A DNA stretch of 64,000 bases from positions 754,501-818,500 of the forward strand of contig NZ_CP042466.1 in NCBI RefSeq assembly GCF_008330225.1, in the 5' to 3' direction. The stretch is from Geobacter sp. FeAm09 (GTDB lineage Bacteria; Desulfobacterota; Desulfuromonadia; Geobacterales; Pseudopelobacteraceae). This document shows, one piece after another, positions 8,156 to 33,212 of the stretch. Position 1 is the stretch's first letter, and the number at the start of each line of letters is the position of its first letter. The translations under genes and the position numbers were made by a program. Below the pieces are notes generated by a model that did no database searches, was not told the DNA's origin, and was given only the letters and a program-made list of their open reading frames with translations.

Positions 8156-8161
8156 GGTAGT

Positions 8162-8241
8162 CGATAATACTCAACCATCCGCGAGGATGGGGCGGAAAGC
8201 CTACAGGGTCTCACCGAGACAGCCGGGTTGCCGAAATATCA
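8162..8241 (+). promoter_or_regulatory. GEMM-I riboswitch, probable GEMM-Ib (3',3'-cGAMP) subtype, copy 1
   Basis: The aptamer shows all GEMM-I elements in order: a hairpin CCATCC-GCGA-GGATGG with a GNRA tetraloop, the conserved GGCGGAAAGCC junction, a second hairpin around GGGTCTC-ACC-GAGAC, and the closing GCCGGGTTGCCGAA. It closely resembles the Geobacter RNAs shown to bind cyclic AMP-GMP. It has AATAC at the place where Vc2-type c-di-GMP aptamers carry the ligand-contacting G20, and the A there is the published selectivity signature. It is identical over 80 bases to copy 3 at 23108. The subtype assignment rests on remembered alignments. Downstream lies an intrinsic terminator and the beta-barrel gene. 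Confidence 0.88.
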
Positions 8242-19652: not shown

Positions 19653-19709
19653 ATAAACGTGTAATGCACTGCAATGATTGAATTTAATAAAGCCAATGGG
19701 GTTGACAAA

Positions 19710-22700
19710 ATGTCACTGAACAAACTGTGGTTTGAGCTGGAGGAATGGGAGAAGGAAATCCTGCTGTACCTGGCCCAGGGCATTTCACCGGTCTCCATCG
19801 ACCTGCTCTGCATGTTGTCGGCGCGCTCCCCCGTGGAAATACTCACGGTGATGGACAAACTCAAAAAGAAAAAGGTCGTCTGCGAGAAAAAGGAATGTCC
19901 CAAGGGCACCTATTTCCTCTGTGAAAGCCAACTGGGGGAACAGATCCGGGAATACGTCCCGGAGGAGGCCATGCGGGAAGCCGTGTGCGCCATGATCAGG
20001 ACCTACCATCAATTTCTCGACGAGGGGCACGACAAGGACCTCGCCCTGGCGAAACTGTACCTGGAAAACGGCGAATGCCCACAAGGGCTGAGCTACGTAA
20101 GAAACGCCGCCGACTTCTTCCTCCAGACCGACCAGCCGGACAAGGCGCTGGCCTATTACGACTACCTGGTGCGCACCGTTGCCGCTGCCGGCCTGAACGC
20201 CGGCAATGCGGAGTTCTACCTGTCCGGCTTCATGGGGAAGATCGAAACCACGGGGCAATGGATCCCGGTGGACGAGATCGTCTCCCAGGTGTTCGAGGCC
20301 TGCGCGGTGGCCCGGCGTTACCGGCAGTGGCAGTTCCTGGCGCGGGCGCAGTTCGAGCTGATCTGGCGCCTGCTCCTGCAGGGCGACATCAAAAAGGCGG
20401 CCCACTATGTTTCCGCGACCATGAAGCTGGCCGAAAGATTGGCCGACAAGCGGATGGTCAAGATGGCGGCCATGTGGCAATGCGAGATCCACCGCTGGCG
20501 GGGCGAAGTGGCGGAGGGGGTCCGGCGCTACGAGGAGTCGGTGGAGAAGCTGGAGACCTTCGGGGACGACAAGCCGTCGCTGTGGGCCGGGGCGGCGCTG
20601 GGGCTGAGCTACGTCATCTCCGGGCGGGCGGCCCAGGGGTTGGGGATGATCGAGGCGGTGCGGCTCAAGACCAACCTGCTCAACATCATGTCCCGGCGGC
20701 TGGTGGTGTTCGTCGACCGGATGCTCATCGTATCGCTGCTCGAGATCCGCAGGCTCGACGAGGCGAAGGCCTACGTCGACGCCATGCTCACGCTGCCGGA
20801 CAGGCTGCTCGGCTTCTACATGCTGCGCGAACTCTGCCTCTACCGCGCCTACTTCCTGTGCGGCGAGGGCAAGTACCGGGAGGCGTTCGATTACCACGTA
20901 AAGGCCACGGAGTACATGCGCTACGGCGGCTTTGTCCAGCAGAAGTTCCCCTGGAGCTTCGAATACATGGACATTCTGGAAAAGCAGGGGTTCATCCATG
21001 GGGAGATGAATTACGACGGGGAGGTGGAGCGGGTCCTCAGGGGGCACGACATCTACATGAAGGGGGTCGGGCTGCGCTACCGGGCCCTGCGCAGCCTGGA
21101 GCGGCACGAGCCGTGTGAAAAGGTGTTGGCGGACCTGCACGGAAGCGAGAGCCTTCTGGAGCGGGCCGGCGCCGAGATCGAACTGGCCCGGACCCGGATC
21201 GCCCTGGGGCGCGCACACCTGAAAACGGGCGACGCCCAACACGCCCAGAGCTACCTGGAAAAGGCGTGGATGGTGTTCTCCAAGATCGACATAGAACTGT
21301 TCCCCAAGGAGTTGCTGGCGACCCTCCCCCTGGAGAAAAAAAATGAAATAGTGTTCAACAGGATCATCGCCATCAACAAGTCCCTGGGAAATATCAGGGA
21401 AAAGAGCACCTTCCTCAATCAGGTGATCAGTGCGGCGCTGGATTTCACCATGACCACCCGCGGGGCGCTTTTCAGCATAGGGAGGGACCGGGAACCGTGT
21501 GTCGTGGCCAGCAGAAATATGGATCCGCTGTTCTTCACGACAAGGCAATTCAAGCTTATCAAGAAAGTCGTGGCCCTGACCGCCCGGACGACAGCGGAGC
21601 GGATCGTGCCGGGGCCCGGCGCAACGGACGCCGTGGCAGAGGATGCCCTGGCGCAAAGCGGCACCACATCGTTCATCTGCATGCCGGCACGGCAGAACGA
21701 GGCCATGCAGGAATACCTGTACCTCGACAACAAATTCACCGAAGGTGCGTTCAGTACAAGCCAGCTTCTCTATCTGCGGCTTCTGTGCAGCCAGATGGCG
21801 GTGGGGCTGTCCAATATCGAGGCCTACGAGGCGATCCGGGAGACGAAAGACCGCTACCAGGACGAGGCGGTCTTCTACAAACGGGAGATGGGGATCGACA
21901 ACCCCATCGAGACCATCGTCGGCACCTCCACGGGGATCACCACGGTCAAGGAGGCGATCCGCCAAGCCGCACCCACGGATATCTCGGTGCTGGTCATGGG
22001 GGAAACCGGCGTGGGCAAGGAGTTGGTGGCCAAGGCCATCCACAACCTGAGCAACCGCAAGGACGGCCCCTTCATCCCGGTCAACCTGGCGGCCATCCCG
22101 TCCGAGCTCTTCGTCAGCGAGCTCTTCGGCCACGAGAAGGGGGCCTTCACCGGGGCCGGGGACCTGTACAAAGGGCGCTTCGAACTGGCCCACGGCGGGA
22201 CCATCTTCCTGGACGAGATCGGCGACCTGCCGCTGCACGTCCAGGTGAGGCTGCTGCGCGTCCTCCAGGAGGGGAGCTTCGAGCGGCTCGGGAGCTCGAA
22301 AGCGATCCGTTCCGACTTCCGGGTGGTGGCGGCCACCAACAAGGACCTGGCGCGGGAGGTGGAAAAGGGGACGTTCCGCCAGGACCTGTACTACCGGCTG
22401 AACGTCTTTCCGATCCAGGTGCCGCCGCTGCGCGAGAGGCTGGAGGACATCCGCCCCCTGGCCCAGCATTTCCTTGTGGTATCGAGCCAGAAGATGCGCA
22501 AGAAGCTGCAGCACATCCCCGCCGACGAGCTGCGCAAGCTGATGAATTACAACTGGCCGGGCAATGTTCGGGAGTTGAAGCACACGGTGGAGCGGGCGGT
22601 CGTCCAGTTTACCAGCGGCAGGATAAGCTTTACGGGGGTTGAGAATGCCCCGGCGGACGCCCTGCCGGAGGGGGGCTCCTTCTGGGCGCCCTTGGCCGAC

Positions 22701-22844
22701 ATGGAGCGGGAGTATATCGAAAAGGTGCTGAACGCCACGCGCTGGCGGGTCAACGGCCCCAAAGGCGCGGCGCTCATCCTCGGACTGAAGCCGGTGACGC
22801 TGTTTGCCCGCATGAAAAAGCTGGGGATCAGCCGGAATAAATAG
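19710..22844 (+). CDS. Large sigma-54 activator with TPR-like and GAF sensory regions
   Basis: A 1044-residue protein. About residues 1-560 form a helical, TPR-like region preceded by a winged-helix-like N-terminus (VSIDLLCMLSARSPVEILTV). A GAF-like domain follows (STFLNQVISAALDFT to near residue 720), then the AAA+ activator domain with GETGVGKE, GAFTGAG and GGTIFLDEIGDL, and a C-terminal Fis-type helix-turn-helix (GAALILGLKPVTLFARMKK). There is no receiver domain, so it probably senses a ligand directly. The start at 19710 has GGGG seven bases upstream; an ATG at 19674 is possible. It is divergent from the FAD-reductase operon with its sigma-54 promoter and is almost certainly that operon's activator. 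Confidence 0.93.
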   Translation: MSLNKLWFELEEWEKEILLYLAQGISPVSIDLLCMLSARSPVEILTVMDKLKKKKVVCEKKECPKGTYFLCESQLGEQIREYVPEEAMREAVCAMIRTYHQFLDEGHDKDLALAKLYLENGECPQGLSYVRNAADFFLQTDQPDKALAYYDYLVRTVAAAGLNAGNAEFYLSGFMGKIETTGQWIPVDEIVSQVFEACAVARRYRQWQFLARAQFELIWRLLLQGDIKKAAHYVSATMKLAERLADKRMVKMAAMWQCEIHRWRGEVAEGVRRYEESVEKLETFGDDKPSLWAGAALGLSYVISGRAAQGLGMIEAVRLKTNLLNIMSRRLVVFVDRMLIVSLLEIRRLDEAKAYVDAMLTLPDRLLGFYMLRELCLYRAYFLCGEGKYREAFDYHVKATEYMRYGGFVQQKFPWSFEYMDILEKQGFIHGEMNYDGEVERVLRGHDIYMKGVGLRYRALRSLERHEPCEKVLADLHGSESLLERAGAEIELARTRIALGRAHLKTGDAQHAQSYLEKAWMVFSKIDIELFPKELLATLPLEKKNEIVFNRIIAINKSLGNIREKSTFLNQVISAALDFTMTTRGALFSIGRDREPCVVASRNMDPLFFTTRQFKLIKKVVALTARTTAERIVPGPGATDAVAEDALAQSGTTSFICMPARQNEAMQEYLYLDNKFTEGAFSTSQLLYLRLLCSQMAVGLSNIEAYEAIRETKDRYQDEAVFYKREMGIDNPIETIVGTSTGITTVKEAIRQAAPTDISVLVMGETGVGKELVAKAIHNLSNRKDGPFIPVNLAAIPSELFVSELFGHEKGAFTGAGDLYKGRFELAHGGTIFLDEIGDLPLHVQVRLLRVLQEGSFERLGSSKAIRSDFRVVAATNKDLAREVEKGTFRQDLYYRLNVFPIQVPPLRERLEDIRPLAQHFLVVSSQKMRKKLQHIPADELRKLMNYNWPGNVRELKHTVERAVVQFTSGRISFTGVENAPADALPEGGSFWAPLADMEREYIEKVLNATRWRVNGPKGAALILGLKPVTLFARMKKLGISRNK

Positions 22845-22899: not shown

Positions 22900-22928
22900 T
22901 TGACAAGCCTCTCCGGACCTGATAGAAA
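22900..22928 (+). promoter_or_regulatory. Sigma-70-type promoter upstream of the tandem riboswitches
   Basis: TTGACA (22900-22905), 17 bases, TAGAAA (22923-22928). The start would fall near 22935, about 18 bases before the first aptamer. No promoter-like sequence was found between the two aptamers, so one transcript should carry both. Confidence 0.55.
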
Positions 22929-22952
22929 AGCCGAAAATTTTTCAGGGATAGA

Positions 22953-23032
22953 CGACAATACTCAACCATCCGCAAGGATGGGGCGGAAAGCCTATAGGGT
23001 CTCACCGAGACAGCCGGGTTGCCGAAATATCA
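22953..23032 (+). promoter_or_regulatory. GEMM-I riboswitch, probable cGAMP subtype, copy 2 (first of tandem pair)
   Basis: Same architecture as copies 1 and 3, differing from them at three of 80 positions: GACAA for GATAA at the base of P1, a GCAA instead of GCGA tetraloop, and CTATAG for CTACAG. All three changes keep the structure. The A at the G20-equivalent position is retained, so cGAMP preference is predicted. Confidence 0.88.
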
Positions 23033-23060
23033 CGTGATATGCGGCAATCCGGCTTTTTTT
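23013..23060 (+). terminator. Terminator of riboswitch copy 2
   Basis: GCCGGGTTGCCG from the aptamer's 3' strand pairs with CGGCAATCCGGC (one G-T pair), followed by seven T. This is mutually exclusive with the folded aptamer, so ligand should relieve termination. Confidence 0.8.
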
Positions 23061-23107
23061 GTGCCGCACCGCGCTGCCCGCCGACGGCAGTACAACCAGG
23101 TGGTACA

Positions 23108-23187
23108 CGATAATACTCAACCATCCGCGAGGATGGGGCGGAAAGCCTACAGGGTCTCACCGAGACAGCCGGGTTGCCGAAATATCA
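23108..23187 (+). promoter_or_regulatory. GEMM-I riboswitch, probable cGAMP subtype, copy 3 (second of tandem pair)
   Basis: Identical over 80 bases to copy 1 at 8162-8241, fifteen kilobases away. It starts 48 bases after the T tract of the first unit. Being downstream of another complete riboswitch-terminator unit, it forms a serial gate on the same transcript. Confidence 0.88.
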
Positions 23188-23216
23188 CGCCAGATATGCG
23201 GTAATCCGGCTTTTTT
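23168..23216 (+). terminator. Terminator of riboswitch copy 3
   Basis: GCCGGGTTGCCG pairs with CGGTAATCCGGC (two G-T pairs), followed by six T. The stem is weaker than that of copy 2, suggesting the two gates differ in tightness. Confidence 0.75.
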
Positions 23217-23309
23217 GCGCCCGGACCCGAAATGTGCGGGGACAATCCCGGTTGGAGGATCTGTCGCCGGTACACCCTACAGACCAGTGAGAAAGGTAGT
23301 GCATCGCCC

Positions 23310-24632
23310 ATGCGTCCAGTCGTCGCCCAGTCGCCCTTCTTGTCCAATTGTTTTCGCCTTGCGGCGCTTTGGGTCTTCATCGCGGCTCTCCAGGGGTGCG
23401 CCGCGGTAAAAGGTGCCCAGGAAAATTCCTGGCTTGCTTCGGGCCCGGTTGAAAAGGAGGTCGAACGAAACCGATTCCCGGTTGCCAAAGGAGACGACGT
23501 CATCGGCCGGCTGGCTGCCGTCAGGCTTGAAAAGGGGGATACGCTGCCGGATGTCGCCCGGCACTTTGGCCTGGGGATCAACGCCATCAGCGCCGCCAAT
23601 CCCGGGGTGGACGTATGGGCGCCCGAGGTCGGAAAACGTATCGTCCTGCCCCTGAGCTTCATCCTGCCGAACGCTTCGAGAAAAGGCATCGTGGTCAATC
23701 TGGCCGCCATGAGGCTCTTTCACTATACCGGGGAGGGCACATCGCCGGTGGTGACGACCTATCCGGTCGGGGTGGGGACCAAAGAGCGGCCCACGCCCCA
23801 AGGCCAGATGCGCGTGGAGCGCAAGGCGGCCCGGCCGACCTGGCATGTGCCCGCTTCCATTGCGGCGGATCACCGGAAGAAGGGGGATATCCTGCCCGCG
23901 GCAGTGCCGCCGGGGCCGCAGAACCCCCTGGGGGAATACGCGCTCTATCTGAGTAAAGCGGGCTATCTGATCCACGGCACCAACAAGCCGGCCAGTATCG
24001 GCCTGAAAGCGACCAACGGCTGCATGCGGCTCTACCCGGAAAACATCAAGGCGCTCTTCGGCGATACCCCGGTCGCCACGCCGGTCGCCATCGTCAATCA
24101 GCCCTACCTCATCGGCCAACGCGATGGCGTGCTGTACCTGGAAGCCCATACGCCCCTGGAAGACTCGGGCGCCGGCGAGTTGCAGAAAGTGTACGAGCGG
24201 TTGAAAATCATCGAAAAGAAGTCAGGGCGCACGCTCGACTGGGAAAAGATCAGGCAGGTTCAGACCGAAGCCCGGGGGATTCCCGTCCCCATCTTCGAAA
24301 TGGGCCCGGGGAGCGGGGGAGGGCTGCCAAAAACCGTGGAGGTGGAGCATCCGGCCACCCTGTACGGCAAACCGGAACAGCCTGAACTGAACATGGCGGC
24401 GTGGTATGTGCTGGCTGCCGATGTGCATGACGAGATCGACGCCCGGAGAATCGCCGCCATCATCAACCACCAGGGGCCGCCGATCCCGGCGCAGGTGCTG
24501 CCAAAGAGCAAGAGCTACCGGGTTATCGCCGGCCCTTTCGGCACTGTTGGCGAGGCCAGGGAGGCGACCAGGCGCCTGAAAATGGATTTGGATATGGACG
24601 GTATCGTGATTGAACCGGTCGGGACGCTGTGA
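23310..24632 (+). CDS. L,D-transpeptidase lipoprotein with LysM and SPOR-like regions
   Basis: A 440-residue protein. An N-terminal signal sequence with a lipobox (ALQGC) is followed by a LysM domain (RLEKGDTLPDVARHFGLGI, SAANPG). A YkuD L,D-transpeptidase domain comes next with the His and Cys motifs IHGTNKPASIGLK and TNGCMRLY, and then a C-terminal SPOR-like repeat (YRVIAGPFGTVGEAREA). It should form or exchange peptide cross-links, or attach lipoproteins to peptidoglycan, in the periplasm. The ATG has only a distant AAAGG; other starts are possible. Two serial riboswitches precede it and a Braun-type lipoprotein gene follows 81 bases later, a probable enzyme-substrate pair. Confidence 0.9.
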   Translation: MRPVVAQSPFLSNCFRLAALWVFIAALQGCAAVKGAQENSWLASGPVEKEVERNRFPVAKGDDVIGRLAAVRLEKGDTLPDVARHFGLGINAISAANPGVDVWAPEVGKRIVLPLSFILPNASRKGIVVNLAAMRLFHYTGEGTSPVVTTYPVGVGTKERPTPQGQMRVERKAARPTWHVPASIAADHRKKGDILPAAVPPGPQNPLGEYALYLSKAGYLIHGTNKPASIGLKATNGCMRLYPENIKALFGDTPVATPVAIVNQPYLIGQRDGVLYLEAHTPLEDSGAGELQKVYERLKIIEKKSGRTLDWEKIRQVQTEARGIPVPIFEMGPGSGGGLPKTVEVEHPATLYGKPEQPELNMAAWYVLAADVHDEIDARRIAAIINHQGPPIPAQVLPKSKSYRVIAGPFGTVGEAREATRRLKMDLDMDGIVIEPVGTL

Positions 24633-24713: not shown

Positions 24714-25016
24714 ATGAAAAAAAGTATGGTACTGGTAGCAATGATGTTGTTCCCCGCCATGACGCTGACGAGTTGTGCAACAACCGGTGACCTGGAGAAA
24801 ATGCAGGCACAGCAGAAACTGATCGATGCGAAGGCCGATCAGGCATTGCAGGATGCGCAGGCTGCCAAGGCGGCGGCCGATGCGGCCAAGTTGAAGGCGG
24901 ATGTTGCCACGGCCCGCGCCGAAGAAGCGACCAAGGAGGCAGAGGCGCGGGAAAAGATCGCCGATGAAAAGGCGAAAAAAGCCGATGCGGTTTTCCAGAG
25001 GTCCATGAAGAAATAG
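24714..25016 (+). CDS. Braun-type (Lpp/OprI-like) alanine-rich lipoprotein
   Basis: A 100-residue lipoprotein with lipobox MTLTSCATTG, followed by an uninterrupted alanine-rich coiled coil with heptad spacing (QALQDAQAAKAAADAAKLK) and a C-terminal Lys-Lys. Lpp family members end in the lysine that L,D-transpeptidases join to peptidoglycan. With such an enzyme encoded just upstream and another just downstream, this protein is probably covalently wall-linked and tethers the outer membrane. AAAAGGAGG precedes the ATG. It shares the riboswitch-controlled transcript and is followed by a terminator. Confidence 0.85.
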   Translation: MKKSMVLVAMMLFPAMTLTSCATTGDLEKMQAQQKLIDAKADQALQDAQAAKAAADAAKLKADVATARAEEATKEAEAREKIADEKAKKADAVFQRSMKK

Positions 25017-25080: not shown

Positions 25081-25140
25081 ATTCGCCACGTACGCTAGCG
25101 GAGCACGATGGTCCCGGTGCATCCGCCAGGAGGTGAGGAG

Positions 25141-26154
25141 ATGAGGGAACCGAGAGCCTGCCCAATCATACGGCCTGATGGTTTCAGACGTTCTTCGGCA
25201 TATGCGGGCGGGAAAAGGGGGCGGAGAAGGGGACGCCTCTTCCTGTTCCTTGCCGCCATGGTATTAGCGCCGATGATGATGGCCGGCTGCGGCGGCATGC
25301 AGGGAGGGTTTCGCGACAGGGCCGCCTTTGCAGAGGCCAATGACCTGTTCAGCCAGGGGAAGTACCAGGCATCTCTGAACAAATACGGCCAGCTTATGGA
25401 AAAAGAGCCCGCAGCGAGGGATCGGATTCTGTTTGAAATGGGTATCATTTATGCCCACCCCAAAAATGAACAAAAGGATTATCCGAAATCCCTGGACTGC
25501 TTCCAAAAGATCATCAGGGAATATCCCGGGAGCGACTACCGGCACAACAGTGAGGTCATGGTCTTTACCATTAACAACGTGGTTTTCAAGGACCGGTTGA
25601 TTGCCGAGCAGCACGCGCGAATAGAGGCTCTTCATCACGAGGCGAAACGTGGGGAGGATGAAGCTGCTGCACTGCAACGGAGGATACGGCTGCTCGAACA
25701 GAATGTTCTGGATTTTGCGGCCAGGAAACGGTCGGTAGACAGGATCGTGATTGAAAAGAAGGAACGGCGGCTGATGCTGCTCTCAAAGGGCGAGGTGCTC
25801 AAAACCTACAGGATAGCCCTGGGGGGAAACCCGGACGGCCCCAAGGAACGGCGGGGAGACAACAAAACACCTGAGGGCACCTACGTCATCGACGGAAAGA
25901 ACAGGAACAGCCAGTACCACCAATCCCTCCATATCTCCTACCCGAACGAGCGAGACAAAAAACGGGCGAAAGAACTGGGTGTCTCCCCCGGCGGCGACAT
26001 CATGATCCACGGAATCAAGGCGGGATTCTCGTGGGTTGGCGCCCTTCAGGCAAACAATGACTGGACAAAGGGGTGCATTGCCGTAACGGATGAAGAGATC
26101 GAGGAGATCTTCAAGCTGGTGTCACTCGATACGGTTGTGGAGATACGGCCGTAG
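25141..26154 (+). CDS. Second L,D-transpeptidase (YkuD) lipoprotein with TPR-like region
   Basis: A 337-residue protein. A long basic N-region precedes a hydrophobic core and lipobox (MMMAGCGG). A TPR-like helical region follows (AFAEANDLFSQGKYQASLNK) with a coiled coil near residue 170. The catalytic domain has IMIHGIK and TKGCIAV, the His and Cys motifs of YkuD enzymes (ErfK/YafK-like). The ATG is preceded by GGAGG. It sits 124 bases after the Braun-type lipoprotein and may attach or, like DpaA, detach such lipoproteins; which of the two is not determined. Its stop is three bases from the end of the converging radical SAM gene. Confidence 0.88.
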   Translation: MREPRACPIIRPDGFRRSSAYAGGKRGRRRGRLFLFLAAMVLAPMMMAGCGGMQGGFRDRAAFAEANDLFSQGKYQASLNKYGQLMEKEPAARDRILFEMGIIYAHPKNEQKDYPKSLDCFQKIIREYPGSDYRHNSEVMVFTINNVVFKDRLIAEQHARIEALHHEAKRGEDEAAALQRRIRLLEQNVLDFAARKRSVDRIVIEKKERRLMLLSKGEVLKTYRIALGGNPDGPKERRGDNKTPEGTYVIDGKNRNSQYHQSLHISYPNERDKKRAKELGVSPGGDIMIHGIKAGFSWVGALQANNDWTKGCIAVTDEEIEEIFKLVSLDTVVEIRP

Positions 26155-28026: not shown

Positions 28027-28096
28027 TAGCAGGGGATAGAGTTTAACGGCGGATCAGGTGAATCCACTCATCCATCCCTCAAAGTGGAGGTTCGTC

Positions 28097-29425
28097 ATGG
28101 CAATGTTCTGGATCCAATTTGTGCTCGTACTAGGTGCCGTGCTCATCGGTATCCGCAGAGGCGGCGTTGCCCTCGGCATGATCGGCGGCCTGGGCGTATC
28201 GCTTTTGGTGCTTGGTTTCCGCAGCGCTCCCTCCGAACCTCCCATCGCCGTCATGCTGATCATTCTGGCGGTGGTCACGGCGTCGGCGACCCTCCAGGTG
28301 GCGGGCGGCCTGGACTACCTGGTGCAGTTGACCGAGCGGATGCTGCGCGCCCACCCCAAATACGTGACCGTGCTGGCGCCGCTCTCCACCTTTTTCCTGA
28401 CGGTCTGCTGCGGCACCGGCCACGCCGTCTACGCCCTGCTTCCGGTCATCTCCGACGTGGCCCTCAAGACCAAGATCCGTCCCGAACGCCCCATGGCCAT
28501 CTCCAGCGTCGCCTCCCAGATGGGGATCACCGCCAGCCCGGTTGCGGCGGCCGTGACCTTCTTCCTGGGATTTGCCGCCAAGGCCGGCCACCCGGTCACC
28601 CTGATCGACATCATCATGGTCACCATGCCGGCCGGGGTCATCGGCGTCCTGGCCGCAGCCGCCTGGAGCTTCAACCGCGGCAAGGACCTGGACAAGGACC
28701 CCGAGTTCCAGGCACGGCTCCAGGACCCTGACTTCAAAAAGGCGCTGGATGCCGATGTCACCACCCTGGGCAAGGAGATCTCCACCACCGCGAAGATCTC
28801 GGTGCTGTTGTTCTTCGCCGGCGTCGGCTCCATCATCCTCTTGGCAAGTTGTCCCCAGCTGCTCCCCCTGGGTATGGACAAGAAGCCGATCGCCATGACC
28901 ACGGTGGTCCAGTTCGTCATGCTGGCCTACGGCGCCTTCATCATGTTCACCGCTAACGTCAAGGCCAAGGATATCGCCCACTCCAGCGTGTTCATCGCCG
29001 GCATGATCGCGGTCGTCTCCATCTTCGGCATCGCCTGGATGAGCGATACCTTCATCACCGCCAACAAGAAGTTTCTGGTGGAGAACATCGGCATCATGGT
29101 CAAGATGGCCCCCTGGACCTTTGCCATCGCCACCTTCTGCATCTCCGCCTTTGTGAAGAGCCAGGCCGCCACCCTCGCCATCACGCTTCCCCTGGGCCTG
29201 GCCCTGGGGCTGCCGATCCCGCTTTTGCTGGGCCTGATGCCGGCCAGCTACGCCTATTTCTTCTTTGCCTTCTACCCCAGCGACCTGGCCGCCATCAACA
29301 TGGACCGCACCGGCACGACCCATATCGGCAAATACCTGCTCAATCACAGCTTCATGATCCCCGGGCTGATCGGCGTCTTCGTCTCGACCGTGGTGGCCTA
29401 TACCATATCGCAACTGATGTTCTAG
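28097..29425 (+). CDS. dcuB: Anaerobic C4-dicarboxylate transporter (Dcu family)
   Basis: A 442-residue inner-membrane protein with 10-12 hydrophobic segments, starting [18 protein letters not shown] (GGAGG six bases upstream). Family signatures include [40 protein letters not shown] and the late [19 protein letters not shown]. Dcu transporters exchange fumarate, malate or aspartate for succinate under anaerobic conditions. A sigma-54 promoter and three operators lie upstream; fumarase and fumarate reductase genes follow. The symbol follows the closest well-known paralogue; DcuA and DcuB cannot be separated by eye. Confidence 0.93.
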
Positions 29426-29508
29426 GCCGCAATCGCCATGCGCGGCCCCGGGCCGCCTCTTTGCCCCGAACACGGCGGATCACAATGGAGTTGATCGCTT
29501 CTATTTGG

Positions 29509-29544
29509 AAAGGTGGGCACACGAAACGTGCCCGCCTTTTTTTT
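29509..29544 (+). terminator. Intrinsic terminator between dcuB and the fumarase gene
   Basis: AAGGTGGGCAC pairs with GTGCCCGCCTT around ACGAAAC, followed by a long T tract. It lies 62 bases before the fumarase start, so fumarase expression needs read-through or its own promoter. Confidence 0.8.
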
Positions 29545-29566
29545 GCCTGAAAACGGAAGATCACCA

Positions 29567-29584
29567 GCAATGGCATGCCATTGC
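29567..29584. promoter_or_regulatory. 18-bp perfect palindrome just upstream of the fumarase gene
   Basis: GCAATGGCATGCCATTGC lies 22 bases before the fumarase ATG and just beyond the dcuB terminator. It could be an operator or a hairpin near the ribosome binding site. Confidence 0.5.
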
Positions 29585-29606
29585 ATACCACGAGAGGAGG
29601 AAGTTG

Positions 29607-31376
29607 ATGTCACTCAGCAGAAGGGATTTTCTCAAGAAGAGCGCAACCGTGTCGGCCGTGTCGGCCGCAACCCTGATGGGACTGGCCACGACCCAGGCAA
29701 TGGCTGCCTCGGATGCACCGGCGGAGGAGCCGAAGGTCGCACCGCGGAAGGGGGACCGCAAGGCCCCGGCCTTCAAGGTCCAGGACCCGTATCCCCTGGG
29801 GCCCGATACGACCACATACAACCTGCTCACCAAAAAGCATGTCTCCGTGGTCACGGTCAACGGCAAGGAGATGCTCCAGGTCGATCCCAAAGCGCTCACC
29901 CTGCTTGCCAATACCGCCATGCGGGATGTGAGCTTCATGCTCCGGCCGGCCCATCTGGAACAGGTCGCCGCCATCCTCTCCGACCCCGAGGCCTCGGCCA
30001 ACGACAAGTACGTGGCCACCACCATGCTGCGCAATGCGGAGGTGGCCGCCCAGTTCCAGTTGCCCATCTGCCAGGATACCGGCACCGCCACCATCTACGC
30101 CAAAAAAGGGCAGCGGGTGCTGGTGGGGGGCAACGACGAACAATACCTCTCCGCCGGGGTCTATGAAACCTATACGGAAGAAAACCTGCGCTACTCCCAA
30201 ACCATCCCCTTGGACATGTACCAGGAGGTGAACTCGGGCAACAACCTGCCGGCCCAGATCGACATCATGGCCACCACCGGCATGGAATACAAGTTCCTCT
30301 TCGTGGCCAAGGGGGGCGGGTCGGCCAACAAGACCATGCTCTACCAGGAGACCAAGGCGGTGCTCAACCCGGCCAGCCTGGAGAAGTTCCTGGTGGAGAA
30401 GATGAAGAGCCTGGGGACCGCGGCCTGCCCTCCCTACCACCTGGCCTTCGTCATCGGCGGCACCTCGGCCGAGGCGTGCCTGAAGACGGTGAAGCTGGCC
30501 TCCACCAAATACCTGGATACGCTCCCCACCAGCGGCAACAAGGCGGGACAGGCCTTCCGCGACCTGGAACTGGAGAAGAAGCTCCTGGCCGCGGCCCACA
30601 CCTGCGGCTACGGCGCCCAGTTCGGCGGCAAATATTTCGCGCTGGACGTGCGGGTCATCCGCCTGCCGCGCCACGGCGCCTCCTGCCCCATCGGCATGGG
30701 GGTCTCCTGTTCCGCCGACCGCAACGTCAAGGCTAAGATCAATAAGGACGGCATCTGGCTCGAAGAGTTGGAGCGCAATCCGGGCCGCTTCCTGCCGGCC
30801 GCTTTCCGCACCAAGGCCGAGGCGGGCGTCGCGATCGACCTCAACCGCCCCATGAAGGAGATCCTGGCCGACATGACCAGGTATCCGGCCGGCACCCGGC
30901 TCTCCCTGAGCGGCACCATCATCGTGGCCCGGGACATCGCCCACGCCAAGTTCAAGGAACGGCTCGACAAGGGGCTGGGGCTGCCCGACTACCTGAAGCA
31001 CCACCCGGTCTATTACGCCGGCCCGGCCAAGACCCCCCAGGGGATGGCGTCCGGCTCCTTCGGCCCCACCACGGCGGGGCGCATGGACTCCTATGTGGAC
31101 CTGCTCCAGTCCCGGGGCGGCTCCATGGTCATGATCGCCAAGGGGAACCGCAGCAAGCAGGTGACGGACGCCTGCAAGAAGCACGGCGGCTTCTACCTGG
31201 GTTCCATCGGCGGCCCGGCGGCGATCCTGGCCAAGGAAAACATCAAGAAGGTGGAATGCCTCGATTATCCCGAACTGGGGATGGAGTCGGTCTGGAAGAT
31301 CGAGGTCGCCGATTTCCCGGCCTTCATCCTGGTGGACGACAAGGGCAACGACCTGTACAAAAAAATACTGGGCTAA
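29607..31376 (+). CDS. Class I (iron-sulfur) fumarase with a twin-arginine export signal
   Basis: A 589-residue enzyme interconverting fumarate and malate. The catalytic part matches FumA/FumB-type fumarases: [18 protein letters not shown] (Cys155), [20 protein letters not shown] (Cys274) and [17 protein letters not shown] (Cys368), the expected ligands of the 4Fe-4S cluster. It also ends in the usual C-terminal domain ([20 protein letters not shown]). Unlike ordinary fumarases it begins [17 protein letters not shown], followed by a hydrophobic core and AMA, a standard Tat signal. ATG preceded by GAGGAGG. A folded Fe-S enzyme is a suitable Tat cargo, so periplasmic location is predicted. It lies between DcuB and periplasmic fumarate reductase and would convert malate to fumarate outside the inner membrane. 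Confidence 0.93.
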
Positions 31377-31406
31377 GCCCACGACAGACATAAGGAGAAA
31401 ACGCAC

Positions 31407-33212
31407 GTGAAACGCTTCAATTTGAAAACAGTCCTGTTGGTAGGCGCGGCGCTGGCCCTGCAGGTTGCCGCCGTGTGGGGCGCCGCGCCCCGAACGTCCG
31501 GGGCCGGAAACGCCCTCGCCGATCTGCACACTGCCCTGGGGGTCACCTGCGCGTCCTGCCACGGCACGGCCAAGGTCGCGGCGGTGGACGACAGCGAGCG
31601 GTCGATCAACGTCACCTGCGTCGGCTGCCACGGCAACCTGGATGCCATGGCGGCACAGGCCAGGGCCGGCAGTCACGTCAATCCCCACAAGTCCCATCTG
31701 GGCGACATCAACTGTACCGTGTGCCACATGGGGCATGTGCAGTCCAAGGCGTACTGCACCAACTGCCACGCCTTTGCCATGAAGATCCCCGCCGGGGACC
31801 CCGTGCCGCAGAAACCGGCGCCCAAGGCCGCCAAAAAGGCTGCTGTGAAGCAGCGGGTCGAACGGGCCGACGTGGTGGTCATCGGGGCCGGGGCGGCCGG
31901 CATGACCGCGGCGATCACGGCCCATGACGCCGGCGCCAGGGTCATCCTGATCGAAAAACAGCCGATCACCGGCGGCAACAGCATGCTGGCCGCCGGCGGC
32001 ATGAATGCGGCCGGGACCCGTTTCCAGAAGGCCAAGGGGATTGCCGATTCGGTGGAGCTCATGTACCAGGATACCATGAAGGGGGGCGGCAACATCGGTG
32101 ATCCCGCCCTGGTCAGGGTACTGGCCAAAGAATCGGCCGGTTCCGTCGACTGGCTGACCTCCCTGGGTGCCGACATCAGCGATGTGGGGAGGATGGGGGG
32201 CGCCAGCGTCAACCGCACCCACCGGCCCAAGGGGGGCGCGGCCGTGGGCGCCCATATCGCCGGCGTGCTGAAGAAAAATGCCGTCCAGCGGCGGATCGAC
32301 ATCCGCCTCAACAGCAAGGTGGTCAAGCTGATCGAGGACAACAAGGGACGCATCACCGGGGTGCAGGTGGAAGGGAAGCACAGCGGCCTCTACACCATCA
32401 AGGCCAAGGCCGTGGTGCTCACCGCCGGCGGCTTTTCGGCCAATGCGGACAAGGTGGCCTTTTACCGCCCCGAATACAAGGGGATGACCACCTCCAACCA
32501 GCCCGGCGCAACGGGCGACGGCATGGACCTGGGCGCCAAGGCGGGCGGCGAGCTGAAGGACATGAAAGAGATCCAGATCCATCCCACCGTGGCGGCCGGC
32601 AGCCGGATCCTGATCACCGAAGCGGTGCGGGGCAACGGCGCCATCCTGGTGAATCACGAAGGCAAGCGCTTCGTGAACGAGCTGACGACCCGGGACAAGG
32701 CCTCGGCCGCCATCCTGGCCCAGACCGGCAAATCGGCCTACCTGGTGTTCGACGAGGGTATCCGCAAGAGCCTCAAGCAGATCGACGGCTATTTTCACCT
32801 GGAACTGGTGAAGGAAGGCGCCACCATCCAGGAGCTTGCCGCCGCCATCAACGTCCCCGCAACGGTCCTCGAAGCGACGGTGGCTTCCTACAACGCCGCC
32901 TTTGACGGGAAAAGCGATCCCGACTTCAAGCGCCCCGACATCCCGCGTCCCATCAGGACGGCCCGGTATTACGCCATCGAGGTCAAGCCGGGGGTGCACT
33001 ACACCATGGGCGGGCTGAAGATCAATGCCGACGGCCAGGTCCTCGCCGCAAGCGGCACACCCATGGCCGGCCTGTTCGCGGCGGGCGAGGTGACCGGCGG
33101 GGTGCACGGCAACAACCGCCTGGGCGGCAACTCCATTTCCGAGACCATCACCTTCGGGCGGATTGCCGGCGCCAGCGCCGCCAAACTCGTGAAGGGCGGG
33201 GCGAAGAAATAG
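31407..33212 (+). CDS. fccA: Periplasmic flavocytochrome c fumarate reductase (tetrahaem-FAD fusion)
   Basis: A 601-residue protein like Shewanella Fcc3. Signal peptide (about 26 residues, Sec type), then a tetrahaem domain with CASCH 48, CVGCH 71, CTVCH 103 and CTNCH 117. The FAD domain opens at VVVIGAGAAGMTAAI. All catalytic residues of the family appear in context: HRPKGG (substrate His), ELTTRDKAS (the proton-donating Arg), VHYTMGG (His) and GGVHGNNRLGGNS (Arg). It reduces fumarate to succinate in the periplasm. It starts 30 bases after the fumarase stop, presumably in the same transcript, and a strong terminator follows. Confidence 0.96.
   Translation: MKRFNLKTVLLVGAALALQVAAVWGAAPRTSGAGNALADLHTALGVTCASCHGTAKVAAVDDSERSINVTCVGCHGNLDAMAAQARAGSHVNPHKSHLGDINCTVCHMGHVQSKAYCTNCHAFAMKIPAGDPVPQKPAPKAAKKAAVKQRVERADVVVIGAGAAGMTAAITAHDAGARVILIEKQPITGGNSMLAAGGMNAAGTRFQKAKGIADSVELMYQDTMKGGGNIGDPALVRVLAKESAGSVDWLTSLGADISDVGRMGGASVNRTHRPKGGAAVGAHIAGVLKKNAVQRRIDIRLNSKVVKLIEDNKGRITGVQVEGKHSGLYTIKAKAVVLTAGGFSANADKVAFYRPEYKGMTTSNQPGATGDGMDLGAKAGGELKDMKEIQIHPTVAAGSRILITEAVRGNGAILVNHEGKRFVNELTTRDKASAAILAQTGKSAYLVFDEGIRKSLKQIDGYFHLELVKEGATIQELAAAINVPATVLEATVASYNAAFDGKSDPDFKRPDIPRPIRTARYYAIEVKPGVHYTMGGLKINADGQVLAASGTPMAGLFAAGEVTGGVHGNNRLGGNSISETITFGRIAGASAAKLVKGGAKK

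Follow-up and report, generated by a model that had tools for sequence, protein, structure and literature searches.

Why would a bacterial leader carry two nearly identical riboswitch units one after the other, and what could a second copy of the same switch add? The question is raised by a short region of the window, by which we mean the whole 64,000-nt stretch of DNA analysed here. A first-pass annotation had described this region as two complete GEMM-I aptamers, each with its own intrinsic terminator, behind a single promoter, and had read the pair as an AND-type or digital gate. The structural part of that description was borne out by Rfam scores and hairpin folds. The gathering score of the GEMM-I family RF01051 (35 bits) was exceeded in the Rfam scan of the window by both tandem units and by a third aptamer; scores with a local model, R1, are given for the tandem units. 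The features of the leader, and of the third aptamer with its gene, are as follows.

22900–22928, + strand: putative promoter, TTGACA-17-TAGAAA, a TG directly preceding the -10 element, 10 of 12 positions matching the sigma-70 consensus
22950–23026, + strand: GEMM-I aptamer of unit 1, cGAMP-type (A at 22960), RF01051 43.5 bits, R1 93.2 bits
23012–23060, + strand: intrinsic terminator of unit 1, with the aptamer 3′ strand as 5′ arm, -29.5 kcal/mol, z -6.65, 7 T
23105–23181, + strand: GEMM-I aptamer of unit 2, cGAMP-type (A at 23115), RF01051 42.6 bits, R1 95.1 bits
23167–23216, + strand: intrinsic terminator of unit 2, with the aptamer 3′ strand as 5′ arm, -27.7 kcal/mol, z -5.90, 6 T
8159–8235, + strand: third, lone cGAMP-type aptamer with its own terminator (hairpin -23.2 kcal/mol), RF01051 41.5 bits
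8335–8937: gene of a beta-barrel outer-membrane protein downstream of the third aptamer (Pfam OMP_b-brl, 2.5e-16)

The two units are carried by a direct repeat of 86 nt, ungapped and 95% identical, with 155 nt from start to start. The aptamers lie 78 nt apart and no gene occupies the gap. Read from the aligned rows, 73 of their 77 nucleotides are identical; the likeness of 77 in 80 positions reported earlier fits a stretch starting at 22953, and over the aptamers themselves it becomes this lower figure. The third aptamer differs from unit 2 at two of 77 positions, while unit 2 differs from unit 1 at four. Over 32 sequences the aptamer helices showed 93.4% standard pairing, which none of 500 shuffles matched and which dropped to 36–56% when the pairing registers of the alignment were slid. 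Changes on both sides were found for nine of the 19 pairs, so that P2, P3 and the short P1b helix are upheld by compensatory change; helix 3 is without double changes. The window aptamers presumably resemble the crystallised cGAMP aptamer of G. metallireducens.

The ligand type was read from a single pocket position, the equivalent of G20 in Vc2 (PMC9262584), which according to PMC9481103 is G in binders of c-di-GMP and A in binders of cGAMP. It is A in both units, in line with the cGAMP type proposed by the first-pass annotation. By this base, both units would be of the GEMM-Ib (3′,3′-cGAMP) type, an assignment that forms part of the serial-switch explanation given below. The genome of the window organism contains 18 over-threshold GEMM-I copies, nine of them with A at this position and the remaining copies that were aligned or read with G. 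The c-di-GMP-I-GGC family (RF03167), which belongs to the same clan as RF01051, was also considered, since it outranks RF01051 and was kept over it in permissive scans of orthologous loci. Its matches in those loci score 39.5 to 54.6 bits, all below the gathering score of 59, and the window units reach only 43.8 and 45.4 bits (as carried in L021) and have A, not G. The family was therefore rejected.

Downstream of the pair lie three genes that would form the regulated operon.

23310–24632, + strand: first gene of the putative operon, L,D-transpeptidase (YkuD) that also has a SPOR domain, PF03734 3.3e-21, PF05036 2.8e-08
24714–25016, + strand: alanine-zipper lipoprotein, Lpp type, PF11839 1.1e-13
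25108–26154, + strand: second L,D-transpeptidase (YkuD), PF03734 2.4e-21

The first gene has an alternative start at 23232, and its product also shows a LysM match (PF01476) of 20.7 bits, just under the cut-off of 20.9. In G. sulfurreducens, a lipoprotein-transpeptidase operon, GSU0181-0183, is described as cGAMP-dependent and as down 16-fold on gacA deletion (PMC6456294). A literature search by the name of this operon brought, in its listing, nothing further on the leader. Judged from gene content and the description in that paper, GSU0181-0183 is probably the ortholog of the window operon. On the other side of the pair, a 1056-aa regulator of the sigma-54-activator type (19674–22844) ends 55 nt before the promoter-like site. 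Farther downstream, positions 28058–33212 hold a C4-dicarboxylate transporter, a fumarase-like protein whose N-terminus resembles a signal sequence and an adjoining cytochrome-flavin reductase, a gene group that looks like an exported fumarate-handling set.

Conservation of the arrangement was assessed with 31 strong orthologs of the first gene and a further 23 drawn from other families; DNA loci were available for 52 of these 54. At least one unit was found upstream in all 52 loci and two units in 37 (20/30 in family f1, 4/4 in f3 and 13/18 in f4). The other 15 loci show a single unit, some perhaps because they are cut by contig ends; the pair is thus not indispensable. Among 80 loci listed with record titles and scanned with R1, which do not include G. 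sulfurreducens and may share genomes with the 52, two units were present in 16, one in 8 and none in 56. Named carriers of the pair among the loci listed are Citrifermentans bremense, Geomobilimonas luticola, Pelotalea chapellei and Geobacter sp. AOG1, and Geotalea toluenoxydans has one unit. For relatives in Nitrospirae, Syntrophaceae and Methylococcaceae among these 80 loci, R1 found no unit upstream of the gene; the Methylococcaceae are among its more distant bearers.

Each terminator hairpin was more stable than all of its 200 shuffles, and in each unit the strand that closes the aptamer is the very strand that forms the terminator 5′ arm, as had been proposed. The second stem had also been called the weaker one; in the window this is true but slight, with a difference of only 1.8 kcal/mol. 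Of the 35 orthologous pairs that could be measured, 21 have the weaker terminator in second place, 11 have the stronger one there and 3 have two of equal strength (Wilcoxon p 0.010); the other two of the 37 pairs lacked a T run of five recognisable to the script and were dropped. A subset of 20 pairs gave 14 weaker, 5 stronger and 1 equal. Because the loci are related, we do not read this as selection acting on the strength of the second gate.

No promoter was returned by a strict sigma-70 scan, and the terminator scan run alongside missed both + strand terminators. The promoter scan came up empty because it accepted only those -10 elements that have T in the sixth position. It was replaced by the best match over 12 positions together with a comparison of orthologs. 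The best site within 110 nt upstream of unit 2 matches the sigma-70 consensus at 7 of 12 positions, as compared to 10 of 12 for unit 1. In 46 of the 50 orthologous loci with enough upstream DNA, a TTGACA box lies no more than 110 nt ahead of the first or only unit (in the other two of the 52 the upstream DNA is too short); for the second unit the same is true of 2 of 37 loci. With TTGACA regularly ahead of the first or only unit and rarely ahead of the second, the premise of a serial gate appears sound. These patterns support one promoter and two serial terminators on one leader, agreeing with the single promoter suggested at first, and the coordinates of the element should be taken as about 22900–23216.

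We consider it very likely that the leader holds two GEMM-Ib switches in series, each turning transcription ON; the ON direction, the independence of the gates, the ligand and the role of the operon are what we infer. Transcription would begin at about 22935. If no ligand is bound, aptamer 1 would give up its 3′ strand to pairing with the sequence that follows directly, and RNA polymerase would stop at the U run near 23060. With ligand bound, aptamer 1 would keep its 3′ strand and the polymerase would run on to the second, near-identical gate, which would take the same decision near 23216. The L,D-transpeptidase, lipoprotein and second L,D-transpeptidase would then be expressed only from transcripts that have passed both gates. 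An aptamer 3′ strand that doubles as terminator 5′ arm is described for the pilM and Bc4 ON switches (PMC9262584, PMC4759541).

The independence of the gates is not certain, because the equilibrium fold of the whole leader prefers pairing across the units: the aptamer 3′ strand of unit 1 with the terminator 3′ arm of unit 2, and the reverse. This raises a relay as the foremost alternative, to which we give a slim chance. Here, ligand-bound unit 1 would free its terminator 3′ arm (23042–23054), which would capture the 5′ strand of unit 2 (23167–23179). Aptamer 2 and terminator 2 would both be blocked, so that a leader locked when empty would be fully open after one binding event. The lowest-energy fold of the leader contains the cross pairing, and the cross duplex is slightly stronger than that of unit 2 itself (-26.2 vs -24.2 kcal/mol). 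The 5′ strands are identical in 32 of the 37 orthologous pairs, so cross pairing is always possible there; however, it is also the automatic outcome of near-identical units. In the five pairs with differing strands, arm 1 fits its own strand better in three, the other in one, and both equally in one, a split that gives no sign of selection for cross pairing. Local pairing is, moreover, normally favoured during transcription. If true, the relay rule could extend to many tandem riboswitches with near-identical units.

A second alternative is that only one switch functions and the other is a redundant copy from a recent duplication. The high identity of the two units and the single-unit relatives (15/52) would fit such an origin, but the relations among units of different loci do not. 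When each unit of the 37 pairs was matched to its nearest neighbour from another locus, the two were of equal rank in 83% of cases, against an expectation of 50% (sd 6%), and none of 500 shuffles of the labels within loci reached this value. Likewise, for 57 of the 72 units compared, the same-rank unit of another locus is closer than the mate, with the mate closer for 10 and ties for 5; in family f1, 8 units are closer to the mate, 27 are not and 3 are tied. This same-rank likeness across loci argues for an ancestral pair rather than a recent duplication. Both terminators are, in addition, intact. We regard a redundant copy as highly improbable. By this comparison of units, the tandem appears old and maintained and the likeness of its units would come from constraint, perhaps with some exchange between the two.

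Scarcely credible is a two-input AND gate whose aptamers prefer different ligands, cGAMP and c-di-GMP: mixed pairs are found in relatives, but here A stands at the selecting position in both units, 73 of 77 nucleotides agree and no nameable binding-site position differs. One ligand is expected for both, and the AND-type reading, judged from sequence, finds no support in this two-input sense.

For two serial ON switches, the result would be pseudo-cooperative, because both gates would read one ligand. In a model of two independent identical gates, the EC90/EC10 ratio falls from 81-fold to 40-fold at best, with an effective Hill coefficient of at most 1.19. With a leak of 5% and a maximum of 90% per gate, the model turns an 18-fold switch into a 324-fold one, the leak being squared. 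The pair is thus predicted to multiply the basal leak down, to raise the half-maximal concentration about 2-fold and to make the curve modestly steeper. Since the leak is squared while the Hill coefficient reaches only 1.19, the main benefit would be tightness. The steeper response expected at first is retained by the model in this modest form, and the word digital overstates it.

The first-pass annotation had also held the tandem arrangement to be noteworthy for this GEMM subtype. The arrangement is not new: tandem GEMM-Ib riboswitches are published for G. sulfurreducens, e.g. upstream of GSU2885 (omcAHG), with RNA-seq over one pair (eLife 2019, PMC6456294). As in the window, two units stand there in series; the operon behind them is cGAMP-dependent, and the species is a different one. 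At a tandem that does not belong to GSU0181-0183, RNA by the second switch is given as undetectable on gacA deletion (PMC6456294). Bc3-5 of Bacillus thuringiensis (Sci Rep 2016, PMC4759541) likewise lines up several complete ON units, each an aptamer with its terminator, from the same structural class. It differs in having three units, in its ligand, c-di-GMP, and in having been measured experimentally, and the triple is reported to be more stringent than a single unit (PMC4759541). A review (RNA Biology 2022, PMC9481103) counts 347 doublets and 12 triplets of c-di-GMP-I, not split by cGAMP subtype, and terms them pseudo-cooperative. The window shares this architecture, with two complete aptamer-platform units of one class before one gene. 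According to a 2025 survey, c-di-GMP riboswitches tend to be tandem and are enriched in Thermodesulfobacteriota (PMC12452182). The window organism itself has three GEMM-I pairs, and 93 of the 285 RF01051 matches in 16 relatives lie in groups of two or three spaced within 400 nt, 46 such clusters in all. The tandem arrangement is ordinary for this order.

The pocket bases were classified in 54 clusters from 22 genomes (46 from relatives and 8 from the window's genus, leaving out the window pair and three genus pairs). There were 40 A-A, 8 A-G, 4 G-G, 1 A-A-G and 1 T-A clusters. In all nine mixed A/G clusters the cGAMP-type unit comes first. Seven genomes hold clusters that end in a canonical c-di-GMP unit, namely six of the eight A-G pairs and the triple:

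L153, 1796–2034: mixed tandem
L158, 1728–2014: mixed tandem
L161, 421–669: mixed tandem
L162, 428–776: mixed tandem
L159 and L160, - strand: mixed tandems
L163, - strand: mixed triple

In the mixed tandems the first, cGAMP-type unit has a terminator, and in five of the six canonical pairs the stretch from aptamer to start codon is predicted to fold so that a complementary sequence masks the ribosome-binding site (single folds, no shuffle control). This suggests that cGAMP would first gate transcription and c-di-GMP would then gate translation. No cGAMP/c-di-GMP pair appears in the two-ligand tandem table of PMC9481103, and we recognised none in a limited literature search. The mixed pairs, which lie outside the window, are more novel and informative than the window pair. 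They often stand ahead of FN3-type exported proteins: FN3 was found in the downstream protein at three of four loci scanned, above the Pfam cut-off at L153 and L162 and below it at L158, with none at L161.

In the two other A-G pairs, L192 and L193, the second unit is GEMM-Ib-like with G at the selecting position. Such units also occur at L144 (1360–1437, reverse-complemented locus) and L140 (4–80). At L144, L192 and L193 the G unit is second and the first has A. These G units resemble the GGC variant, and may reflect a changed ligand in one of two gates. The tandem L155 (G004:C1:1617838-1618154) begins with a unit whose selecting base is T and whose P2 stem is altered, perhaps a degenerating or changed aptamer.

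A possible source of the ligand was sought among the 29 GGDEF domains of the window organism's genome. A Ser nine residues after the substrate-pocket Asn, the position that we take to correspond to S347 of GacA, was found in one domain, 13 of the 29 being unreadable by the motif used.

L226, 1447–2748, - strand: REC-PAS-GGDEF protein with that Ser, GGDEF domain at C1:3472595-3473041 of the organism's own genome

S347 of GacA is described as the change marking Hypr enzymes (PMC6456294), and the L226 protein is a candidate for such a cGAMP synthase.

The window pair leaves the picture of riboswitch logic unchanged. Provided that the predicted binding holds, the mixed pairs would be naturally occurring RNA devices reading two related second messengers on one transcript. 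For the Geobacterales, the pair would be a conserved control element of an envelope operon, and it offers a clean natural experiment on the gain from having the switch twice: a lower leak, a shifted threshold or a steeper response.
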